Positions 325 to 59,315 of a stretch of 59,323 bases of DNA are shown here, in pieces. Made by a program: the position numbers and the translations under genes. Source of the DNA: an uncultured Mycoplasmatota bacterium (GTDB taxonomy: Bacteria > Bacillota_I > Bacilli_A > RF39 > UBA660); contig USNG01000004.1 in the NCBI GenBank assembly GCA_900556025.1, positions 1 to 59,323 of the forward strand. The letters are read 5' to 3'. How positions within the stretch are numbered: the stretch's first letter is position 1; each line of letters opens with the position of its first letter. The notes under the pieces are model-generated. The model was not told the DNA's origin, ran no database searches, and worked only from the letters and a program-made list of their open reading frames with translations.

Positions 325-359
325 TTGAAAAAAATAATAGTTTTGTTTATAATATAGAT
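325..359 (+). promoter_or_regulatory. Sigma-A promoter giving a likely leaderless mRNA
   Basis: TTGAAA (325-330), a 17-nt spacer and TATAAT (348-353) form a near-consensus promoter. The -10 box ends 6 nt before the ATG at 360, so the expected transcription start falls on the start codon itself. There is no Shine-Dalgarno sequence. Confidence 0.7.
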
Positions 360-1154
360 ATGAAGAATAAGAATGTATTGATAATTTTAATTATTATCTT
401 AATGTCTTTACTCATATCTATTTTTAATTTCAATAGATATAGTTCAAAAACATTAGATAAAAGAATATTTAATAGAGATTGGTATTACTATGATTATAGT
501 ACAGGGCACTATGATAAATTGTATTTAACTGAAAATAAAGTTACATTCACTATACCAAATGAAAAAGTAAATACACAATATTCAAAATGCAAAAACTATT
601 CATTTGATAAAAGAACAAATACAATTAAATTAGATTGTAATCTAAATCTACAAATAAAAGAAGTCACAGAAAGCTATATTACATTAAATATGAATAATAA
701 AATTGTAAAATATTTTTCTAATCCAGATGACGCTTTAAATTATAGATTTGAATTATACTATGGTCAAAATATAGTAAGTTATAAAAAAGAAAAATCTCAA
801 GCTTTAAATTACATAAATATTAATCAAAATAAATTAAAAGAATTATATAATGATAATGAATTTTCAAAAGTAGTATTTTTAGGCAATAAATGTACTAGTA
901 TAGATTGTACTTTATTTTTAGATGTATTAGAACATTGGTTAACTAAAGATAATAATATCTATTATATTGATTCTGATCAATTAACAACTACAACTATAAA
1001 AGAATTAAATAAATTAAATCCAAAATTCAGTAATGATTTACTATCGTATAATGATGTATATCCTAAAATCATGATAATTGGAAACAAACAAGTAGTTGAT
1101 GAATATTTAGTTAAATGTACAGGATTTAATTGTGAACAATATATAAAAGATTAA
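360..1154 (+). CDS. Membrane-anchored extracytoplasmic protein, possible thioredoxin-like fold
   Basis: 264 residues. An N-terminal hydrophobic helix (about 5-23) without a lipobox suggests a signal anchor with the rest outside the cell. It has six cysteines in three pairs: 77/93, 178/183 and 253/258. The strand VVFLGNKC (171-178), the strand IYYIDSD and then VYPKIMIIGN (234-242, a possible cis-Pro strand) resemble the strand order of thioredoxin-like proteins, but there is no CxxC. The thioredoxin-like reading is inference. It recalls the redox lipoproteins at 56.6-58.2 kb. The promoter places the transcription start at the ATG. Confidence 0.55.
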   Translation: MKNKNVLIILIIILMSLLISIFNFNRYSSKTLDKRIFNRDWYYYDYSTGHYDKLYLTENKVTFTIPNEKVNTQYSKCKNYSFDKRTNTIKLDCNLNLQIKEVTESYITLNMNNKIVKYFSNPDDALNYRFELYYGQNIVSYKKEKSQALNYININQNKLKELYNDNEFSKVVFLGNKCTSIDCTLFLDVLEHWLTKDNNIYYIDSDQLTTTTIKELNKLNPKFSNDLLSYNDVYPKIMIIGNKQVVDEYLVKCTGFNCEQYIKD

Positions 1155-4856: not shown

Positions 4857-5343
4857 TCCTAAAGAATAGTTATGAAATATTTTGATTGTTAAGTCCACTA
4901 AACTGGATAACGATTGATATTTCTGATTGTTTAGTGAAAAAGTTCTATATAATATATTATTATATAGTTGTAATAATTATTATAGTTTCATGTATAATAT
5001 TAAATTATTGTATATAGAGATTATATTTAATATTACATTATGTATATATTTATTTTAATATTTATGTTGTTGTTAATATTAGTTTATTAATTTATGATAT
5101 TTATGTTTAATAATATATATTTTATAATAATATAACTCTTATTAATTTAAGAAATAGAATTCTTATCTACTATGGACAAATGATGTATCATTGAGAAAGT
5201 AAACTCAAAAATGATAAGTGGTTATGCTAAATACTGATAATATTTAGAACATGTTTAAGTCATTAAATGTGATTTAAACGATTATAATCGATTTTCGTTC
5301 AAACTCGGAGCAATCATGTTTTATCAGAACTGATTGCTTTTTG
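4857..5343 (+). ncRNA. Candidate structured non-coding RNA, family unknown
   Basis: This is the gene-free interval between the hydrogenase and fic genes. It begins at the expected start of the promoter at 4821 and ends at a strong terminator. Visible stems are CACTAAAC/GTTTAGTG (4896-4903 with 4929-4936), ATCATTGAG/CTCA..ATGAT (5187-5195 with 5204-5215), CTAAATA/TATTTAG (5227-5233 with 5241-5247), GTTTAA/TTAAAC (5253-5258 with 5274-5279) and a CGATTATAATCG palindrome (5279-5290). The middle (about 4945-5150) is almost pure A/T. I saw no RNase P, tmRNA, SRP or T-box signature. The transcript, about 490 nt, is inferred, not observed. Confidence 0.5.
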
Positions 5344-6512: not shown

Positions 6513-7026
6513 TATCTTCTAAATCTTCAATAATAGATATATGAAAGAGTAAATTCTTTTGATTAATATCATCAAAATAAGAATATGCTCTTTTTTTATG
6601 CTTATTAATATTATCTATTAATTCTAAAAAAGCTCTATGTTTAATATTAATGTGTTTTCTTAATATATTATAATTGATCTCATATTTATACAAAAATAAT
6701 TTGATAAATTCACTTTGATACCAATCTAAATTATCATAATAATATGATTTATCAAAAAACAAACTATTCAACTTGCTATCAACAGTAAGCTCAAGTATAT
6801 ATTTTAATTCTAAAGGATTTATAAACAAATAGTTCTTTATAAAACTAACATAATTATCTATATTAAAAATAACATTATCATAATAATTAATGTAATTATC
6901 TTTATGGATTAAATGACTTTTAACTTCAATCATTTCATTTTTATCTATAGAGATAATTTTATTTTTTAATGCATCACTTTTTAATAAAGAATATACTTCA
7001 GATAGATTATTTAAATTATTCATCAT
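6502..7026 (-). CDS. Unknown protein coupled to an XRE regulator
   Basis: About 174 residues, soluble, helical-looking and rich in Asn, Tyr, Ile and Lys; no family recognised. Of several clustered ATG codons, the one at 7026 is best placed (GAGG 6 nt upstream). It overlaps the end of the XRE gene by 11 nt, so the two are co-translated. A regulator followed by an overlapping small protein is a layout shared by toxin-antitoxin and other self-regulated pairs; that reading is inference. Its 3' end overlaps fic tail to tail. Confidence 0.6.
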   Translation of the reverse strand: MMNNLNNLSEVYSLLKSDALKNKIISIDKNEMIEVKSHLIHKDNYINYYDNVIFNIDNYVSFIKNYLFINPLELKYILELTVDSKLNSLFFDKSYYYDNLDWYQSEFIKLFLYKYEINYNILRKHINIKHRAFLELIDNINKHKKRAYSYFDDINQKNLLFHISIIEDLEDITS

Positions 7027-7270
7027 TATCATCCTCAAAAAATTTACTTATTGGTACCCTAAGTACAATAGATATCTTATATAAATTATTAATACTAATA
7101 CCTTTAATAACACTACTGCTTTCTAAATTACTTATTAATGAAACTGAAACATTAATTATCTCAGCAAGATCTTCTTGAGTCATCTTACCATACATTTTAT
7201 TATATAGTTTTCTATATTTTTTAACATTCTTTCCAATAATTATATCTAGTTCATCTTGATTCATTTTCAT
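7016..7270 (-). CDS. XRE-family transcriptional regulator
   Basis: 84 residues, essentially a single lambda-repressor-like helix-turn-helix (MTQEDLAEIINVSVSLISNL) followed by GISINNLYKISIVL..PISKFF. It is closely similar to the regulator at 7608-7868 and less so to that at 7361-7621, so the three are paralogues. No Shine-Dalgarno sequence is seen, but TATAAT ends exactly 6 nt before the ATG, suggesting a leaderless mRNA. It likely controls its own operon with the overlapping downstream gene. Confidence 0.82.
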   Translation of the reverse strand: MKMNQDELDIIIGKNVKKYRKLYNKMYGKMTQEDLAEIINVSVSLISNLESSSVIKGISINNLYKISIVLRVPISKFFEDDNDE

Positions 7271-7305
7271 ATATCAATTATAAACCTTTTAATCGAAAAT
7301 GTATA
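7271..7305 (-). promoter_or_regulatory. Promoter with -10 six nt before the ATG (leaderless)
   Basis: On the minus strand TATACA, 17 nt and TATAAT precede the start, and six bases (TGATAT) separate the -10 box from ATG. The nearest purine-rich stretch (AAAAGG) is too far upstream to act as a ribosome binding site. Confidence 0.6.
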
Positions 7306-7360
7306 GTATTACATTACATAAAATTCATGTTAAAAAATGTACAATTAAATTGGTGATTGT

Positions 7361-7621
7361 ATGACAAAATTTAAAAGAGAATTCAATTTTGATAACAATA
7401 TTATAGAAACTATAGCATATAACGTTATTAAATATAGAAAATTAAATAAAATAACTCAAGAACAACTAGCAGTAGATATTGGTGTATCACCAGAATTTAT
7501 AAGAAAGTTTGAAAGTACTAAAGGAAGTGAAGGACTATCATTAATGTCTTTATATAAAATTTCAATAGTATTAAACACTTCCATAGATAAATTCTTTGAA
7601 TCAATTACTAATGATCAATAA
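7361..7621 (+). CDS. XRE-family transcriptional regulator
   Basis: 86 residues with one helix-turn-helix (ITQEQLAVDIGVSPEFIRKF) and the same C-terminal signature, LYKISIVL..SIDKFF, as its two neighbours. It is the most diverged of the trio and lies between them on the opposite strand. GGTGAT is 3 nt upstream of the ATG. Its last 14 nt overlap the end of the convergent paralogue, so the two mRNAs would be antisense to each other at their 3' ends. Confidence 0.78.
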   Translation: MTKFKREFNFDNNIIETIAYNVIKYRKLNKITQEQLAVDIGVSPEFIRKFESTKGSEGLSLMSLYKISIVLNTSIDKFFESITNDQ

Positions 7622-7868
7622 AAAAATTATCAATAGACACATCTAATATTTTACTTATTTTATACAAATTATAAATACTTATCCCTTGATAAGTTTTTTT
7701 ACTTTCTAAGTTACCTATAAGAGATGTAGAAACATTTATTATTTCTGCTAATTTTTCCTGAGTCATCTCATCATTATTAATTGAATAAAGTTTTCTATAA
7801 TATCTTATATTCTTGCCAATTATTGAATATAAATCTTTTTCATCTTTAAATAAATATTCGTCTTTCAT
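7608..7868 (-). CDS. XRE-family transcriptional regulator
   Basis: 86 residues from the preferred ATG at 7868 (GAGGG just upstream, and N-terminal alignment with the paralogue at 7016-7270). An upstream in-frame ATG at 7895 lacks a ribosome binding site. The helix-turn-helix MTQEKLAEIINVSTSLIGNL is followed by GISIYNLYKISKIL. A perfect inverted repeat at 7934-7950 lies in its promoter region and could be its operator. Confidence 0.78.
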   Translation of the reverse strand: MKDEYLFKDEKDLYSIIGKNIRYYRKLYSINNDEMTQEKLAEIINVSTSLIGNLESKKTYQGISIYNLYKISKILDVSIDNFFIDH

Positions 7869-7933
7869 CTTTCCCTCATATAAATATTTTGCCATTATTT
7901 GGATATTTTCGCCATTTACTGTGAATGATAATT

Positions 7934-11394: not shown

Positions 11395-11907
11395 TTATTT
11401 CTTACTTTTCTTTTTATATCTAAGTAATGCTATTATAGTTGAAATAATTTCAAAAATATTTCCTAGCGTTGAAATAAAAGCACCAACTTTAAAGTTATAA
11501 TAAAACCATAATACAGCACAAATACCAAAAACAATCTTATATGTTTTAGCACTTTTAATTGAAGCTCCAACAATATATGAAATAGATGTAACAATTGGTA
11601 TTAAAGATAAATATCCATCATAACTAAAAACACCAATTATTAAAACAATAACAATCAAAAGCAAAGATAATCTTTTAGGTACTTTCTTTCTAGTTTTATC
11701 ATATTTATTAAATAAAATACATCTTAAAACAGTCACTAAACTAGTAGCAACAGCTGTATATGCATGCAATACTAAGTACTGAATAGCATAAAAAACATTA
11801 GCAACCATTTGCAAAAACATCATCTTAGTTTTCTTCTTAAACTGAAGAGATATAACTACACAAGCAATCGCCAAAATTCCAAATATTTGTGCTATATATA
11901 CATTCAT
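11395..11907 (-). CDS. YgjV-like inner membrane protein
   Basis: 170 residues with five or six predicted membrane helices, matching the small YgjV/Imp-YgjV family (N-terminal IAQIFGILAIACVVISLQFKK, then QMVANVFYAIQYLVL). The biochemical function of the family is unknown. It ends 3 nt from the convergent coiled-coil gene. It has no Shine-Dalgarno sequence; TATAAT lies 7 nt before the ATG, so the transcript may be leaderless. Confidence 0.75.
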   Translation of the reverse strand: MNVYIAQIFGILAIACVVISLQFKKKTKMMFLQMVANVFYAIQYLVLHAYTAVATSLVTVLRCILFNKYDKTRKKVPKRLSLLLIVIVLIIGVFSYDGYLSLIPIVTSISYIVGASIKSAKTYKIVFGICAVLWFYYNFKVGAFISTLGNIFEIISTIIALLRYKKKSKK

Positions 11908-12004
11908 AATAACAATTATAATAAAAAATGAATCAAAATTATCAATTATTTAATCAAAAAACATTTAAATGTAAAGTAAAATGAAGAATTTTTTAAAAAT
12001 AATA

Positions 12005-26063: not shown

Positions 26064-26088
26064 TAATTTTATTTATTAGTCATATAAT
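26060..26088 (+). promoter_or_regulatory. Promoter of spoIID, probably leaderless
   Basis: CATATAAT (26081-26088) ends 6 nt before the ATG and no Shine-Dalgarno sequence is present. The -35 region is poor for sigma-A. The CATATAAT shape, with TAATA 15-16 nt upstream, could suit the sporulation factor sigma-E (inference). Confidence 0.5.
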
Positions 26089-26094
26089 TATACT

Positions 26095-27018
26095 ATGAAA
26101 AGAAAAGTCATAGTATTTTTTATTTGTTTAATACTTTTATTAACTAGTTATCCACAAAAAGAAAATAATATTGTAGAAGAACATGATAATATAGTTGAAG
26201 AAATAAAAGAAGAACCAAAACCGTCAAAAACAGTTAGTCTAATATATAATGATAATAAAATAGACATGGACTTAGAGGATTATGTTGTTGGAGTAGTTTC
26301 ATGTGAAGTTCCTGTTTCATTTGAAGAAGAAGCTCTAAAAGCAATGTCAGTTGCTGCTAGAACATTTGCTCTTTATAAAATAGAAACAAATAAAAACTAT
26401 GTTCTTAAAACTAATACAAGTGATCAGTGTTATAACTCAATAGATGATATGAAGAAAAAATGGAAAACTAACTATGATAAAAACTATAAAAAAATCAAAA
26501 ATGCAGTAGAATCTACAAAAGGTGAATATATGACATATAAAGATAAAGTTATAATTGCATTCTATTTTTCTATTTCAAATGGTTATACTGAAAATTGTGA
26601 AAATGTATTTAGTCAAAAATTAGATTATCTAGTTAGTGTAGACTCATCATGGGATAAAGAATATAAATATAAAGAATCAACTAAAACAATAGATATTAAA
26701 ACATTCTTAAGTAAATTAAATATTTCTGAACAAACTATCAACAATATAAAAATAGATAGAAGTACAACAGGAAGAATAAATTATATAACAATTAACTCTA
26801 AAAAATTTAAAGGAACTAAATTTAGACAATTATTAGGTTTAAAGTCAACAGACATAGAAATAACTAACGATTCAAAAAACGTTTATATTAAAACAAAAGG
26901 TTATGGTCATGGAGTTGGAATGAGTCAATTAGGAAGTAATGTTATGGCTAAAAAAGGATATAAGTATGAAGATATTTTAAAATATTATTACACTGGAGTA
27001 AAAATAGTGAATAATTAA
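26095..27018 (+). CDS. spoIID: SpoIID-like lytic transglycosylase
   Basis: 307 residues. A signal-anchor helix (about 4-18) and an acidic linker are followed by the SpoIID/LytB domain. It includes LEDYVVGVVSCEVP with the catalytic Glu, EALKAMSVAARTFAL and the C-terminal GYGHGVGMSQLGSNVMAKKG. In spore formers it cleaves peptidoglycan during engulfment together with SpoIIP and SpoIIM. spoIIQ follows, as in conserved sporulation neighbourhoods. Vegetative SpoIID-like paralogues exist, so the sporulation role is inferred from context. Confidence 0.85.
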   Translation: MKRKVIVFFICLILLLTSYPQKENNIVEEHDNIVEEIKEEPKPSKTVSLIYNDNKIDMDLEDYVVGVVSCEVPVSFEEEALKAMSVAARTFALYKIETNKNYVLKTNTSDQCYNSIDDMKKKWKTNYDKNYKKIKNAVESTKGEYMTYKDKVIIAFYFSISNGYTENCENVFSQKLDYLVSVDSSWDKEYKYKESTKTIDIKTFLSKLNISEQTINNIKIDRSTTGRINYITINSKKFKGTKFRQLLGLKSTDIEITNDSKNVYIKTKGYGHGVGMSQLGSNVMAKKGYKYEDILKYYYTGVKIVNN

Positions 27019-29825: not shown

Positions 29826-29942
29826 TTATAATAATGAAGAAGGCATTTCTGGTTCATCTAAAAGTAATAAAATGCATCCCATTGAAGCAGTAGCTGCGAT
29901 AAAAGCACCAATAGTAGCTGCTAATCCTGCAAAGAATTTCAT
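29826..29942 (-). CDS. agrD: AgrD-like signal peptide precursor
   Basis: 38 codons. An N-terminal hydrophobic/amphipathic leader (MKFFAGLAATIGAFIAA) precedes the predicted signal core with C23 (SMGCILLLL). The charged tail DEPEMPSSLL carries the DE-P-E-x-P motif conserved in AgrD. The ATG overlaps the agrB stop as ATGA, and GGAGGAAAC is upstream. AgrB would cut before D29 and close a thiolactone on C23. CILLLL has one residue more than the five-residue ring of S. aureus and is wholly aliphatic. The mature sequence is inferred. Confidence 0.88.
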   Translation of the reverse strand: MKFFAGLAATIGAFIAATASMGCILLLLDEPEMPSSLL

Positions 29943-30547
29943 AAGTTTCCTCCTTTCTTTTTATAGTTATTATATTGAACTCCGAATAATTTATATGTTA
30001 TAGGTAATATAAGAATTACTTGATTTAATAAAGAATAAAACAAGATATTTTTCATATAAATATTCTTAGAGAATATAATGAATAAAACATAAATTGTAGA
30101 AATTATTATTGTTAACAACTTATAAATATTTCTTTTTTTCTTGTTATATATTGGTCTTTTTTCAGTATCAGCTGGAGCATAAATAGCAAGTATAACTAAA
30201 AATATCATTGAAAGAATATTCATTAACAAGTTATTAACAACAGCAAATTTAATAAGTAATGGCAGTACTGTAAATGTAAATATAGAAGAAATCCAACAAT
30301 GCCATGACTTTTTAGCATGAACTCCAAATGCTGTTAACCTAAGGAGTCCATAGAATACAAATAAAAGTATCAGCTCTTTTGTAAAATGAAATATAAATGA
30401 TATTATAAATATAACAAGTGTTTTAAATATTGATAAATATAATGATTCAATACCATATTTAATCTCTGCTAACTTAACATCATCATAATTGTAATATCTT
30501 TTAATATTACTAATAATACTATTTACTACTACTTCCTTCATAATCAT
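29939..30547 (-). CDS. agrB: AgrB-like peptide-processing membrane protease
   Basis: 202 residues with about five or six membrane helices. The active site is H77 and C84 (GVHAKKSWHC), with the same seven-residue spacing, and even the same numbering, as S. aureus AgrB. It cleaves and cyclises AgrD. agrD overlaps its 3' end by 4 nt. No ribosome binding site is present; TATGAT ends exactly 6 nt before the first ATG, suggesting a leaderless message. A second ATG lies two codons later. Confidence 0.93.
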   Translation of the reverse strand: MIMKEVVVNSIISNIKRYYNYDDVKLAEIKYGIESLYLSIFKTLVIFIISFIFHFTKELILLFVFYGLLRLTAFGVHAKKSWHCWISSIFTFTVLPLLIKFAVVNNLLMNILSMIFLVILAIYAPADTEKRPIYNKKKRNIYKLLTIIISTIYVLFIIFSKNIYMKNILFYSLLNQVILILPITYKLFGVQYNNYKKKGGNL

Positions 30548-30559
30548 GATTCAATCATA
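30548..30559 (-). promoter_or_regulatory. -10 box of agrBD (leaderless)
   Basis: On the minus strand TATGAT is followed by TGAATC and then ATG. The -35 region is weak, which would fit activation by AgrA, but I found no convincing AgrA site nearby. Confidence 0.45.
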
Positions 30560-49545: not shown

Positions 49546-49568
49546 TTATAATATATATGGAGGCAACT

Positions 49569-57698: not shown

Positions 57699-58190
57699 AT
57701 GAAAAAAAGTAACAAATTAATAATTATAGGTGTATCTTTAATATTTGTAAGTTTATTATTAATATTAATGATTTTTAATAGAGCAACAAATACTATAGAA
57801 AAAAATGCTACACTTGATATGATTGACTGTAATAGTTCAAAAGTAAATGTATTTGTATTTTGGGGAGATGGATGTCCTCACTGTAAAAAAGAATTTGAAT
57901 ATTTAGAAAAAATATCTAAAAGATACAGTAGTTACTTTGATGTTTATGGATTTGAAACTTGGTTTAATGAAGATAATTCAAAAATGATGAATAAATTTAG
58001 AGAATTAATTAAAGATGATGCTTCAGGTATTCCTTATACAATAGTTGGAGATAAAGTATTTCATGGATTTGCAAATGAAATGCAAGATGAATTATTAAAT
58101 ACTATTATAGAAAAATATAAATCAAAAGATAAAACAAATTATTGTGAAGAAATAAAAAAAGAATTCACAACTAACAATAAAACAGAATAG
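57699..58190 (+). CDS. Membrane-anchored thioredoxin-like protein
   Basis: 163 residues. One membrane helix (about 7-26) and a thioredoxin fold with the CPHC active site (C59, C62; FWGDGCPHCKKE) and the cis-Pro strand GIPYTIVGDKVFHGF. CPHC resembles DsbA-type oxidants. Two more cysteines flank the fold (C44, C148). It lies 3 nt after the previous gene. Confidence 0.85.
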   Translation: MKKSNKLIIIGVSLIFVSLLLILMIFNRATNTIEKNATLDMIDCNSSKVNVFVFWGDGCPHCKKEFEYLEKISKRYSSYFDVYGFETWFNEDNSKMMNKFRELIKDDASGIPYTIVGDKVFHGFANEMQDELLNTIIEKYKSKDKTNYCEEIKKEFTTNNKTE

Positions 58191-58210
58191 GTTATCCTAT
58201 TCTTTTTTTG
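58186..58210 (+). terminator. Terminator of the rhodanese-thioredoxin operon
   Basis: AATAGG / CCTATT with loop TTAT, followed by CTTTTTTTG. Confidence 0.75.
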
Positions 58211-58217
58211 ACATTAA

Positions 58218-58232
58218 TGATATAATTTTAGT
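58218..58232 (+). promoter_or_regulatory. Extended -10 promoter of prfB (leaderless)
   Basis: TGATATAAT (extended -10 TGn plus TATAAT at 58221-58226) ends 6 nt before ATG. There is no ribosome binding site. TTGACA at 58208 is too close (7 nt) to act as -35. Confidence 0.6.
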
Positions 58233-59315
58233 ATGGAAACAAAAGAAATAGAAAAAAGAATTAATGAATTTTTAAGTTCACTAGAAGATTTAAAAAATAA
58301 ACTAGAAATAGATGATAAAAAGAAAAGAATGGAAGAATTAAATAAAATATCATCAAGTCTAGATTTTTGGAATGATATAGAAAGTACAAAACCAGTATTA
58401 GAAGAACAAAAAAGATTAGGAACTATCATTAATAAGTATGATAATATTTTTGATAGTGTAACTACATTAAATGAAATGTTAGAACTTGAATTAGAAGAAG
58501 GAGATTTAGAATCATTAACATCTGAAATAGAAGAATTAGATTCAAAAATAAATGATTTAAAACTAGCCACATTTCTGAATGGAGAATACGATTCATCTAA
58601 TGCATATGTAGAAATACATTCAGGAGCAGGAGGAACAGAAAGCAATGATTGGGCTAATATGTTACTTAGAATGTATACAAGATACTTTGATAAGAATGAT
58701 TATAAATATGAAATAATAAGTAAAAATGATGGAGAAGAAGTTGGTATTAAAGGAGCTGTATTACTAGTTAAAGGAAATTATCCTTTTGGTTATTTAAAAG
58801 GAGAAACAGGAGTTCATAGATTAGTAAGAATTAGTCCATTTGATAGTAATAGTAGACGTCATACATCATTTGCATCAGTATTAGTTACACCAGAAATAAA
58901 TAAAAACTTAAATGTAGAAATAAAAGAAAGTGATTTAAGAATAGATGTATATAGATCTAGTGGTTGTGGTGGCCAAGGAGTAAATACAACAGATTCAGCA
59001 GTAAGAATAACCCACTTACCTACAGGATTAGTAACATCTTGTCAAATAGAAAGAAGTCAAATTAAAAATAAAGAAAGAGCCATGGAAATGTTAAAAAGTA
59101 AACTATTCATGCTTAATTTAAATGAATTTAATGATAAAGTCAAAGAATTAAAAGGTGACGTAATGGATGTAAACTTTGGAAGTGCGATAAGAAGTTACGT
59201 AATGTGTCCATATACACTAGTAAAAGATAATAGAACAAACTATGAAACATCTAGTGTAGACAAAGTATTAGATGGAGAAATACAAGAATTTCTTGATGAA
59301 TATTTAAAAAAATAA
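58233..59315 (+). CDS. prfB: Peptide chain release factor 2
   Basis: 360 residues, full length. SPFDSNSRRHTSF carries the SPF tripeptide that reads UGA/UAA. SSGCGGQGVNTTDSAVRITH carries the GGQ peptidyl-hydrolysis loop. The frame is continuous: the usual UGA frameshift control site near codon 25 is absent. Its presence shows that UGA is used as stop. It normally follows secA in related genomes. Eight bases remain after its stop, too few to show the next gene. Confidence 0.96.
   Translation: METKEIEKRINEFLSSLEDLKNKLEIDDKKKRMEELNKISSSLDFWNDIESTKPVLEEQKRLGTIINKYDNIFDSVTTLNEMLELELEEGDLESLTSEIEELDSKINDLKLATFLNGEYDSSNAYVEIHSGAGGTESNDWANMLLRMYTRYFDKNDYKYEIISKNDGEEVGIKGAVLLVKGNYPFGYLKGETGVHRLVRISPFDSNSRRHTSFASVLVTPEINKNLNVEIKESDLRIDVYRSSGCGGQGVNTTDSAVRITHLPTGLVTSCQIERSQIKNKERAMEMLKSKLFMLNLNEFNDKVKELKGDVMDVNFGSAIRSYVMCPYTLVKDNRTNYETSSVDKVLDGEIQEFLDEYLKK

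Follow-up and report, generated by a model that had tools for sequence, protein, structure and literature searches.

The uncultured bacterium whose DNA is described here and its close kin, a group of low-GC gut Bacilli probably of the RF39 type, probably use two kinds of leaderless promoter, one of a housekeeping type and one sigma-E-like, for roughly 2-3% of their ATG genes. Genes of its relatives that lack a Shine-Dalgarno sequence (SD) show a peak of -10-like boxes at 5 to 7 nt before the ATG, the phase is conserved from relative to relative, and at prfB it follows a pattern on the phylogenetic tree. The first class (a) would be transcribed with the housekeeping sigma factor from a TATAAT-like box, often TGn-extended, which ends 6-7 nt from the ATG; its members would be prfB and gene 360 in the window (the whole stretch of 59,323 nt analysed here, 25% G+C) and mutS and others in relatives. 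The second class (b) would consist of sporulation promoters, CATAwAAT and similar, which end about 5 nt from the ATG of spoIID, SpoVB-like, YlbD and YlmC/YmxH genes. In both, RNA polymerase would start on or beside the A of the ATG, and translation would begin at the 5'-terminal AUG without SD pairing. We infer the exact +1, the translation from the 5' end and the sigma factors from the sequence.

Boxes of the window and their phase in relatives

The original prediction had placed TATAAT 6 nt before the ATGs at 360, 26095 and 58233 (forward strand) and 7270 (reverse strand), TATGAT 6 nt before 30547 (reverse strand) and TATAAT 7 nt before 11907 (reverse strand). All six boxes were found there when the sequence was re-read. 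The features of the window are as follows.

325..330, forward strand: -35-like TTGAAA (5/6 match), N17 to the -10 box of gene 360
348..353, forward strand: -10 box TATAAT, ending 6 nt 5' of the ATG at 360
360..1154, forward strand: gene 360, an open reading frame of 264 aa with a hydrophobic N-terminus
7016..7270, reverse strand: small HTH protein of the Cro/CI type (PF01381)
7277..7282, reverse strand: -10 box TATAAT, ending 6 nt 5' of the ATG at 7270
11395..11907, reverse strand: Imp-YgjV membrane protein (PF10688)
11915..11920, reverse strand: TATAAT, 7 nt 5' of the ATG at 11907, with a -35-like TTGATA at N19
26081..26088, forward strand: CATATAAT, a sigma-E-like -10 sequence, 6 nt 5' of the ATG at 26095
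26095..27018, forward strand: spoIID (TIGR02870, 293.8 bits, cut-off 234.75)
29939..30547, reverse strand: agrB-like gene (PF04647)
30554..30559, reverse strand: TATGAT, 6 nt 5' of the ATG at 30547, probably no leaderless promoter
58184..58203, forward strand: terminator-like hairpin, then a T run, 5' of prfB (fold z -3.7)
58221..58226, forward strand: -10 box TATAAT, ending 6 nt 5' of the ATG at 58233
58233..59315, forward strand: prfB (release factor 2), a single open frame of 360 aa (TIGR00020, 463.6 bits, cut-off 370)

The -35 matches of these boxes are uneven: 5/6 at 360 (TTGAAA, N17) and 11907 (TTGATA, N19), 4/6 at 7270, 3/6 each at 26095 and 30547, and 2/6 at 58233 (prfB), where no -35 element is recognisable although a TTGACA-like one at 16-18 nt is expected for sigma-A. 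The absence of an SD, claimed for all of these genes, was found at prfB, gene 360 and spoIID, but 7270 was classed as SD because AAGGT stands upstream of its box. The genes at 30547 (agrB) and 11907 are absent from the called gene set, and the codon score of agrB is -10.3.

The six genes had been chosen for having a box, and the phasing was therefore tested on genes not so chosen. The sample was made up of stretches of four relatives' genomes (G010, G003, G002 and G008) and the loci L001, L004, L005 and L006. Genes were called with a simple codon-score caller, ATG starts were kept, and these were then sorted by SD, which gave 1024 ATG genes: 815 with an SD, 112 without (noSD), and 97 noSD genes with a likely downstream SD start, which were set aside. 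A -10-like box was defined as at least a 5/6 match to TATAAT that keeps the T, the A and the final T, and k as the number of nt from the end of the box to the ATG.

Among the 112 noSD genes, the boxes at k=3 to 9 number 2, 0, 8, 17, 6, 0 and 1, against a background of 1.9 boxes per k at k=9-30 (Poisson p 3e-11 for k=6). A box at k 5-8 is found in 31/112 noSD genes and in 1/815 SD genes (Fisher 2e-29); the boxes of SD genes climb from about 11 nt upstream outward, besides some at 0-1. Lack of room for an SD does not explain the peak at k 6, since k 3, 4, 8 and 9 leave equally little. Five of the 31 boxed genes are prfB, and their loci (L001, L004, L005, L006, L011) had been fetched around that very gene, which makes this part of the sample a selected one. 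Without prfB the count is 26, in which spoIID, mutS and zupT are each still represented twice. After subtraction of chance hits, the predicted leaderless class amounts to about 2-3% of the 1024 ATG genes in the relatives' stretches. In the outgroup genome G124 the signal is weaker, with a box in 3/27 noSD genes (k 7 in each) and in 8/28 genes of the downstream-SD class.

The original prediction had put the chance of an exact TATAAT at one fixed position at 0.4%, and the noSD genes of relatives give 0.42% per position at 9-40 nt upstream. It had also judged the repeated phasing unlikely to be chance, and the peak at k 5-7 bears this out. That AT-rich spacers often give TATAAT near an ATG, from which the matching genes were then picked, does agree with the boxes of agrB and 11907, which are not conserved in close relatives, and with the raw pattern counts: TATAAT-N6-ATG occurs 874 times against 676 for the reversed pattern, summed over the whole genomes of ten relatives. 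Chance is nevertheless a highly improbable explanation, given the sharpness of the peak, with 0 boxes at k 4 and 8, and the conserved phase at prfB and gene 360. A genome-wide scan for TATAAT-N6-ATG had been proposed as the check, and it came out in part: the peak appears in noSD and not in SD genes of the relatives' stretches, but the raw whole-genome excess is modest, and a second raw pattern count gave no clear genome-wide excess. Raw pattern counts are a poor test because they are too noisy in DNA of 25% GC.

Among the raw-pattern matches listed, 20 places were picked, most of them for a 16-mer that recurs between genomes, and the frames after their ATGs were read. Five (L277, L281, L287-L289) open 291-434 aa, L276 opens 130 aa and L290 75 aa; the other 13 were rejected as gene starts, with frames of at most 38 aa. 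One protein of about 295 aa (L287-L289; just 75 aa in L290) has CATATAATTTAAT directly before its ATG in four genomes, and no Pfam match was found for L287. The leaderless geometry was also seen in both G003 and G008 at mutS (L040 and L208, the latter named by the likeness of its N-terminus to L040) and at a zupT-like zinc transporter gene (L048, L218).

Proposed loss of the frameshift and the leader at prfB

The prfB box is present in the window and in eight relatives (L001-L006, L008, L011), where it ends 6 nt from the ATG in seven of the nine and 7 nt from it in L001 and L011. The relatives come from an RF2 scan that returned 17 loci: 12 kin at 58-79% identity (including the fragmentary L016), four Gastranaerophilales and a fragment from Parcubacteria. 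In plain register, the mean pairwise identity is 0.66 in the box, 0.57 in the spacer and 0.39 at -50..-13; two columns of the spacer are T throughout.

The window prfB does not have the programmed frameshift (an SD-like stretch and CTTTGA near codon 25), and its TIGR00020 match runs over 12-359 in a single frame. RF2 genes were compared in 58 rows, three of which are Gastranaerophilales and two of which (L008 and L088) are the same gene. Of the 55 others, 44 more distant ones carry the frameshift site; 42 of these are SD-led and two are noSD, and a box at 4-8 nt is found in 0/44. The remaining 11 rows are in frame: nine are leaderless by their geometry (eight genes), and two, L007 of the same clade and L059, are SD-led. 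The frameshift genes are the best 30 matches at most per search, of 146 and 98 genomes, plus L010. Start codons with an SD were preferred when their starts were assigned, a rule biased towards the SD class; even so, 2/45 are noSD and have no box. The start of L089 looks wrong.

The in-frame genes are grouped into a single clade of the RF2 tree (100/95), from whose base the SD-led L059 branches; within it, a nested clade (99/87) holds the leaderless genes together with L007. The bootstrap for both is not fully settled. The simplest history of these sequences would be that the frameshift was lost, then the leader, and that an SD was regained in L007. The switch to a leaderless prfB would have followed or accompanied the loss of the programmed frameshift. 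RF2 output would then be set at the leaderless promoter, and it may be tied to the availability of free 70S ribosomes.

A second explanation is that the boxes are secondary promoters and that the main transcripts read through from upstream genes and carry long leaders. Same-strand ORFs do closely precede 360 and 26095, with gaps of 35 and 31 nt. This explanation is improbable all the same: prfB, gene 360 and spoIID have no SD, the geometry is conserved, and a terminator-like hairpin stands before prfB. The stem ends at 58203, 29 nt 5' of the ATG, and if it works, the prfB promoter must sit almost on the start codon.

A third explanation holds that the starts are misplaced, the true start being a downstream ATG with an SD and the upstream ATG lying inside a short leader. 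This does occur in the window, at 49557 (ATGGAGG..ATG) and 16541, it is the reason for which 97/1024 starts were set aside, and for 7270 and 30547 the alignment with most relatives begins at codon 3. It is improbable nonetheless. In the window, prfB, gene 360 and spoIID have no in-frame SD-led start in the next 60 nt. The prfB relatives align from residue 1, with METK opening 7/9 of the proteins and MEQK and MDKK the rest, and the relatives of gene 360 open alike with MKN or MKK.

TGA is the stop codon of 1/52 called genes of the window, of 9-14% of genes in the relatives' samples, and of 7% in G124, which bears the frameshift. A study of frameshift loss (PMC12421855) links it to frequent use of TGA, low-TGA Mycoplasmatota being an exception, and reports that the motif is absent from Actinomycetota and from those Mycoplasmatota that retain prfB, as it is from the window prfB. 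TGA is rare in the clade of the window, unlike in the genomes to which that link applies, and some of the relatives used here are labelled Tenericutes. The word 'leaderless' does not occur in the study's main text. If the proposed history is true, the loss of the prfB frameshift was accompanied by a changed translation start, in a clade with rare TGA, and close relatives in each prfB state would make a natural comparison for RF2 control.

Conservation at the other boxes

Outside prfB, the phase is also kept in the relatives of gene 360, but the close relatives of agrB, 7270 and 11907 are mostly SD-led. A TAnnAT box stands at 6 nt in 8/8 copies of gene 360 (the window and L132-L138), and L139 is SD-led. 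TTGAA of the -35 element is kept in 6/7 aligned relatives, and the identity is 0.82 in the box, 0.63 upstream and 0.43 in the spacer. No NCBIfam or Pfam family was found for the protein.

At 7270 an SD precedes the gene in the relatives, most of which begin at what is codon 3 in the window. The window gene does not have the relatives' SD stretch, so it would be at best a recent conversion. For 11907, the five nearest relatives (40-48% identity) are SD-led, and the distant L128-L130 have TATAAT at 6-8 nt. A leaderless agrB was rejected: among nine relatives, most have an SD leader and their match to the window gene begins at its codon 2 or 3, with L116 as one that has no SD. The original prediction had proposed that both a release factor and a quorum-sensing protease are leaderless; the conserved phase at prfB supports the former, and the latter is unsupported.

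The region around 7270 (7016-7895) holds three small genes on alternating strands, one an HTH protein by Pfam and the others alike by eye, and similar arrays are found in relatives, with 14 matches in G009. A PGK RNA motif (RF03040, 81.6 bits) lies at 5155-5247 on the forward strand, 3' of a [FeFe] hydrogenase gene.

The spoIID box seems to resemble a sigma-E box and not a housekeeping -10 box. The sigma-E -10 consensus is CATACAnT. Two sequence features separate the boxes of the relatives by phase. TGn precedes the box in 15/23 genes at k 6-7, against 122/375 leadered promoters (p 0.0025) and 7.9% of 11440 coding-interior boxes, but in 0/8 genes at k=5. CA precedes the box in 4/8 of the k=5 genes, against 4/375 leadered promoters. 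These eight are spoIID (two genomes), a SpoVB-like gene, a YlbD coat protein gene, YlmC/YmxH, a zupT-like gene (two genomes) and one unknown; 5/8 are spore genes and the zupT-like pair are not. The SpoVB-like (TIGR02900) and zupT-like assignments score below cut-off.

The spoIID relatives L104-L111 carry CATAwAAT or AATAAAAT at 5-6 nt, and L112 carries TATAAT at 7 nt. Identity over nine rows (L105 was left out of the profile) is 0.64 in the box, 0.65 in the spacer and 0.39 upstream; because box and spacer score alike, the alignment does not establish for spoIID that the box is conserved in its own right. In 8/9 genomes the SpoVB relative has a box ending 5 nt from the ATG, with the sequence CATANNNT or, once, AATATAAT. 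The ninth is G124, in which both spoIID (L113) and SpoVB (L314) are SD-led, and no close relative of SpoVB was found in G005, the tenth genome searched. In the same genomes SpoIVA (9 loci) has its CATA box 26-32 nt from the start and so has a leader; class (b) is thus not general to the regulon.

These observations suggest that class (b) boxes are sigma-E promoters. At spoIID, the CATA-type box and an AATA stretch were seen by eye in the alignments, and the sigma-E-like factor of the relatives is below cut-off: it was found in 10/12 relatives' genomes (TIGR02835, E 1e-91 to 9e-82), each time short of the curated threshold. For G002 and G007 the strongest matches are just 3e-20 and 2e-18, and neither genome has spoIID; incomplete assemblies may account for both absences. 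No k=5 gene was found in G002 (0/24 against 8/82 elsewhere), a difference that is not significant (p 0.19).

Passages of PMC517825 and PMC3789822 describe spoIID and spoVB as sigma-E genes in B. subtilis and spoIID as one in C. difficile, and an ATA motif in the -35 region of C. difficile sigma-E promoters (PMC3789822). Neither species has a leaderless sigma-E promoter in these passages, in contrast to class (b) here. It is an evenly balanced matter whether the fuller reading holds, namely that RF2 control was dismantled in two steps (the frameshift, then the leader and SD) and that a sigma-E-type promoter, one nt shorter in phase, made part of the mother-cell regulon (spoIID, SpoVB-like, YlbD, YlmC) leaderless.

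Known leaderless systems

The mechanism is not new: Firmicutes are known to have leaderless mRNAs of the same geometry. Zheng et al. 2011 (PMC3160421) took a TANNNT about 12 bp 5' of the start codon as a -10 box, and their tables give such TA-led genes in 56/209 Firmicutes genomes, including Lactobacillales and Mycoplasma, at a mean of 4.2% of genes. Here, likewise, a box stands about 12 bp upstream, prfB, gene 360 and spoIID have no SD, and there is an excess over chance in the relatives' stretches; the passages of Zheng et al. on TA-led genes name neither this clade, nor prfB, nor a sporulation-type box. In Streptococcus pyogenes, S. agalactiae and S. pneumoniae, 8.6-9% of mapped transcripts or operons are leaderless, 81% of the S. 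pyogenes set is common to S. agalactiae, and leaderless mRNA was efficiently translated in an S. pneumoniae reporter assay (PMC6431027, PMC6212727). Those 5' ends were mapped, whereas the ones of the present clade are predicted. A further difference lies at prfB, for which the same two papers mention frameshifting among the conserved leaders of S. pyogenes and a 5' UTR in S. pneumoniae. Just 15 leaderless candidates are given for C. difficile (PMC7438776).

The statement in the original prediction that leaderless mRNAs are uncommon in described Firmicutes thus runs against the figures for TA-led genes and for Streptococcus. Its gap of 6-7 nt, which would put the +1 on the A of the ATG, agrees with Mesoplasma florum, where most mapped starts fall 6 or 7 bases past the -10 box and some 70% of starts are A (PMC7745072). 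No report of a leaderless prfB or of leaderless sigma-E promoters was found in the open-licence literature searched, and leaderless use for prfB and some spore-formation genes looks new. What might surprise a specialist is the switch at prfB, together with the sporulation class. If true, the phasing would also give a sequence rule for start calling in metagenome-assembled genomes of the clade, where leaderless starts are easily misplaced.

A similar geometry was seen in Gastranaerophilales, which are non-photosynthetic cyanobacteria. Their prfB has TAAAAT 6 nt from the ATG in the three loci examined of four (L012, L014, L015), and L014 still carries the frameshift site. In the whole genomes G011-G013, TATAAT-N6-ATG outnumbers the reversed pattern by 108 to 27, 92 to 29 and 142 to 27, and in stretches of G012 a box stands at 5-8 nt in 11/28 noSD genes.
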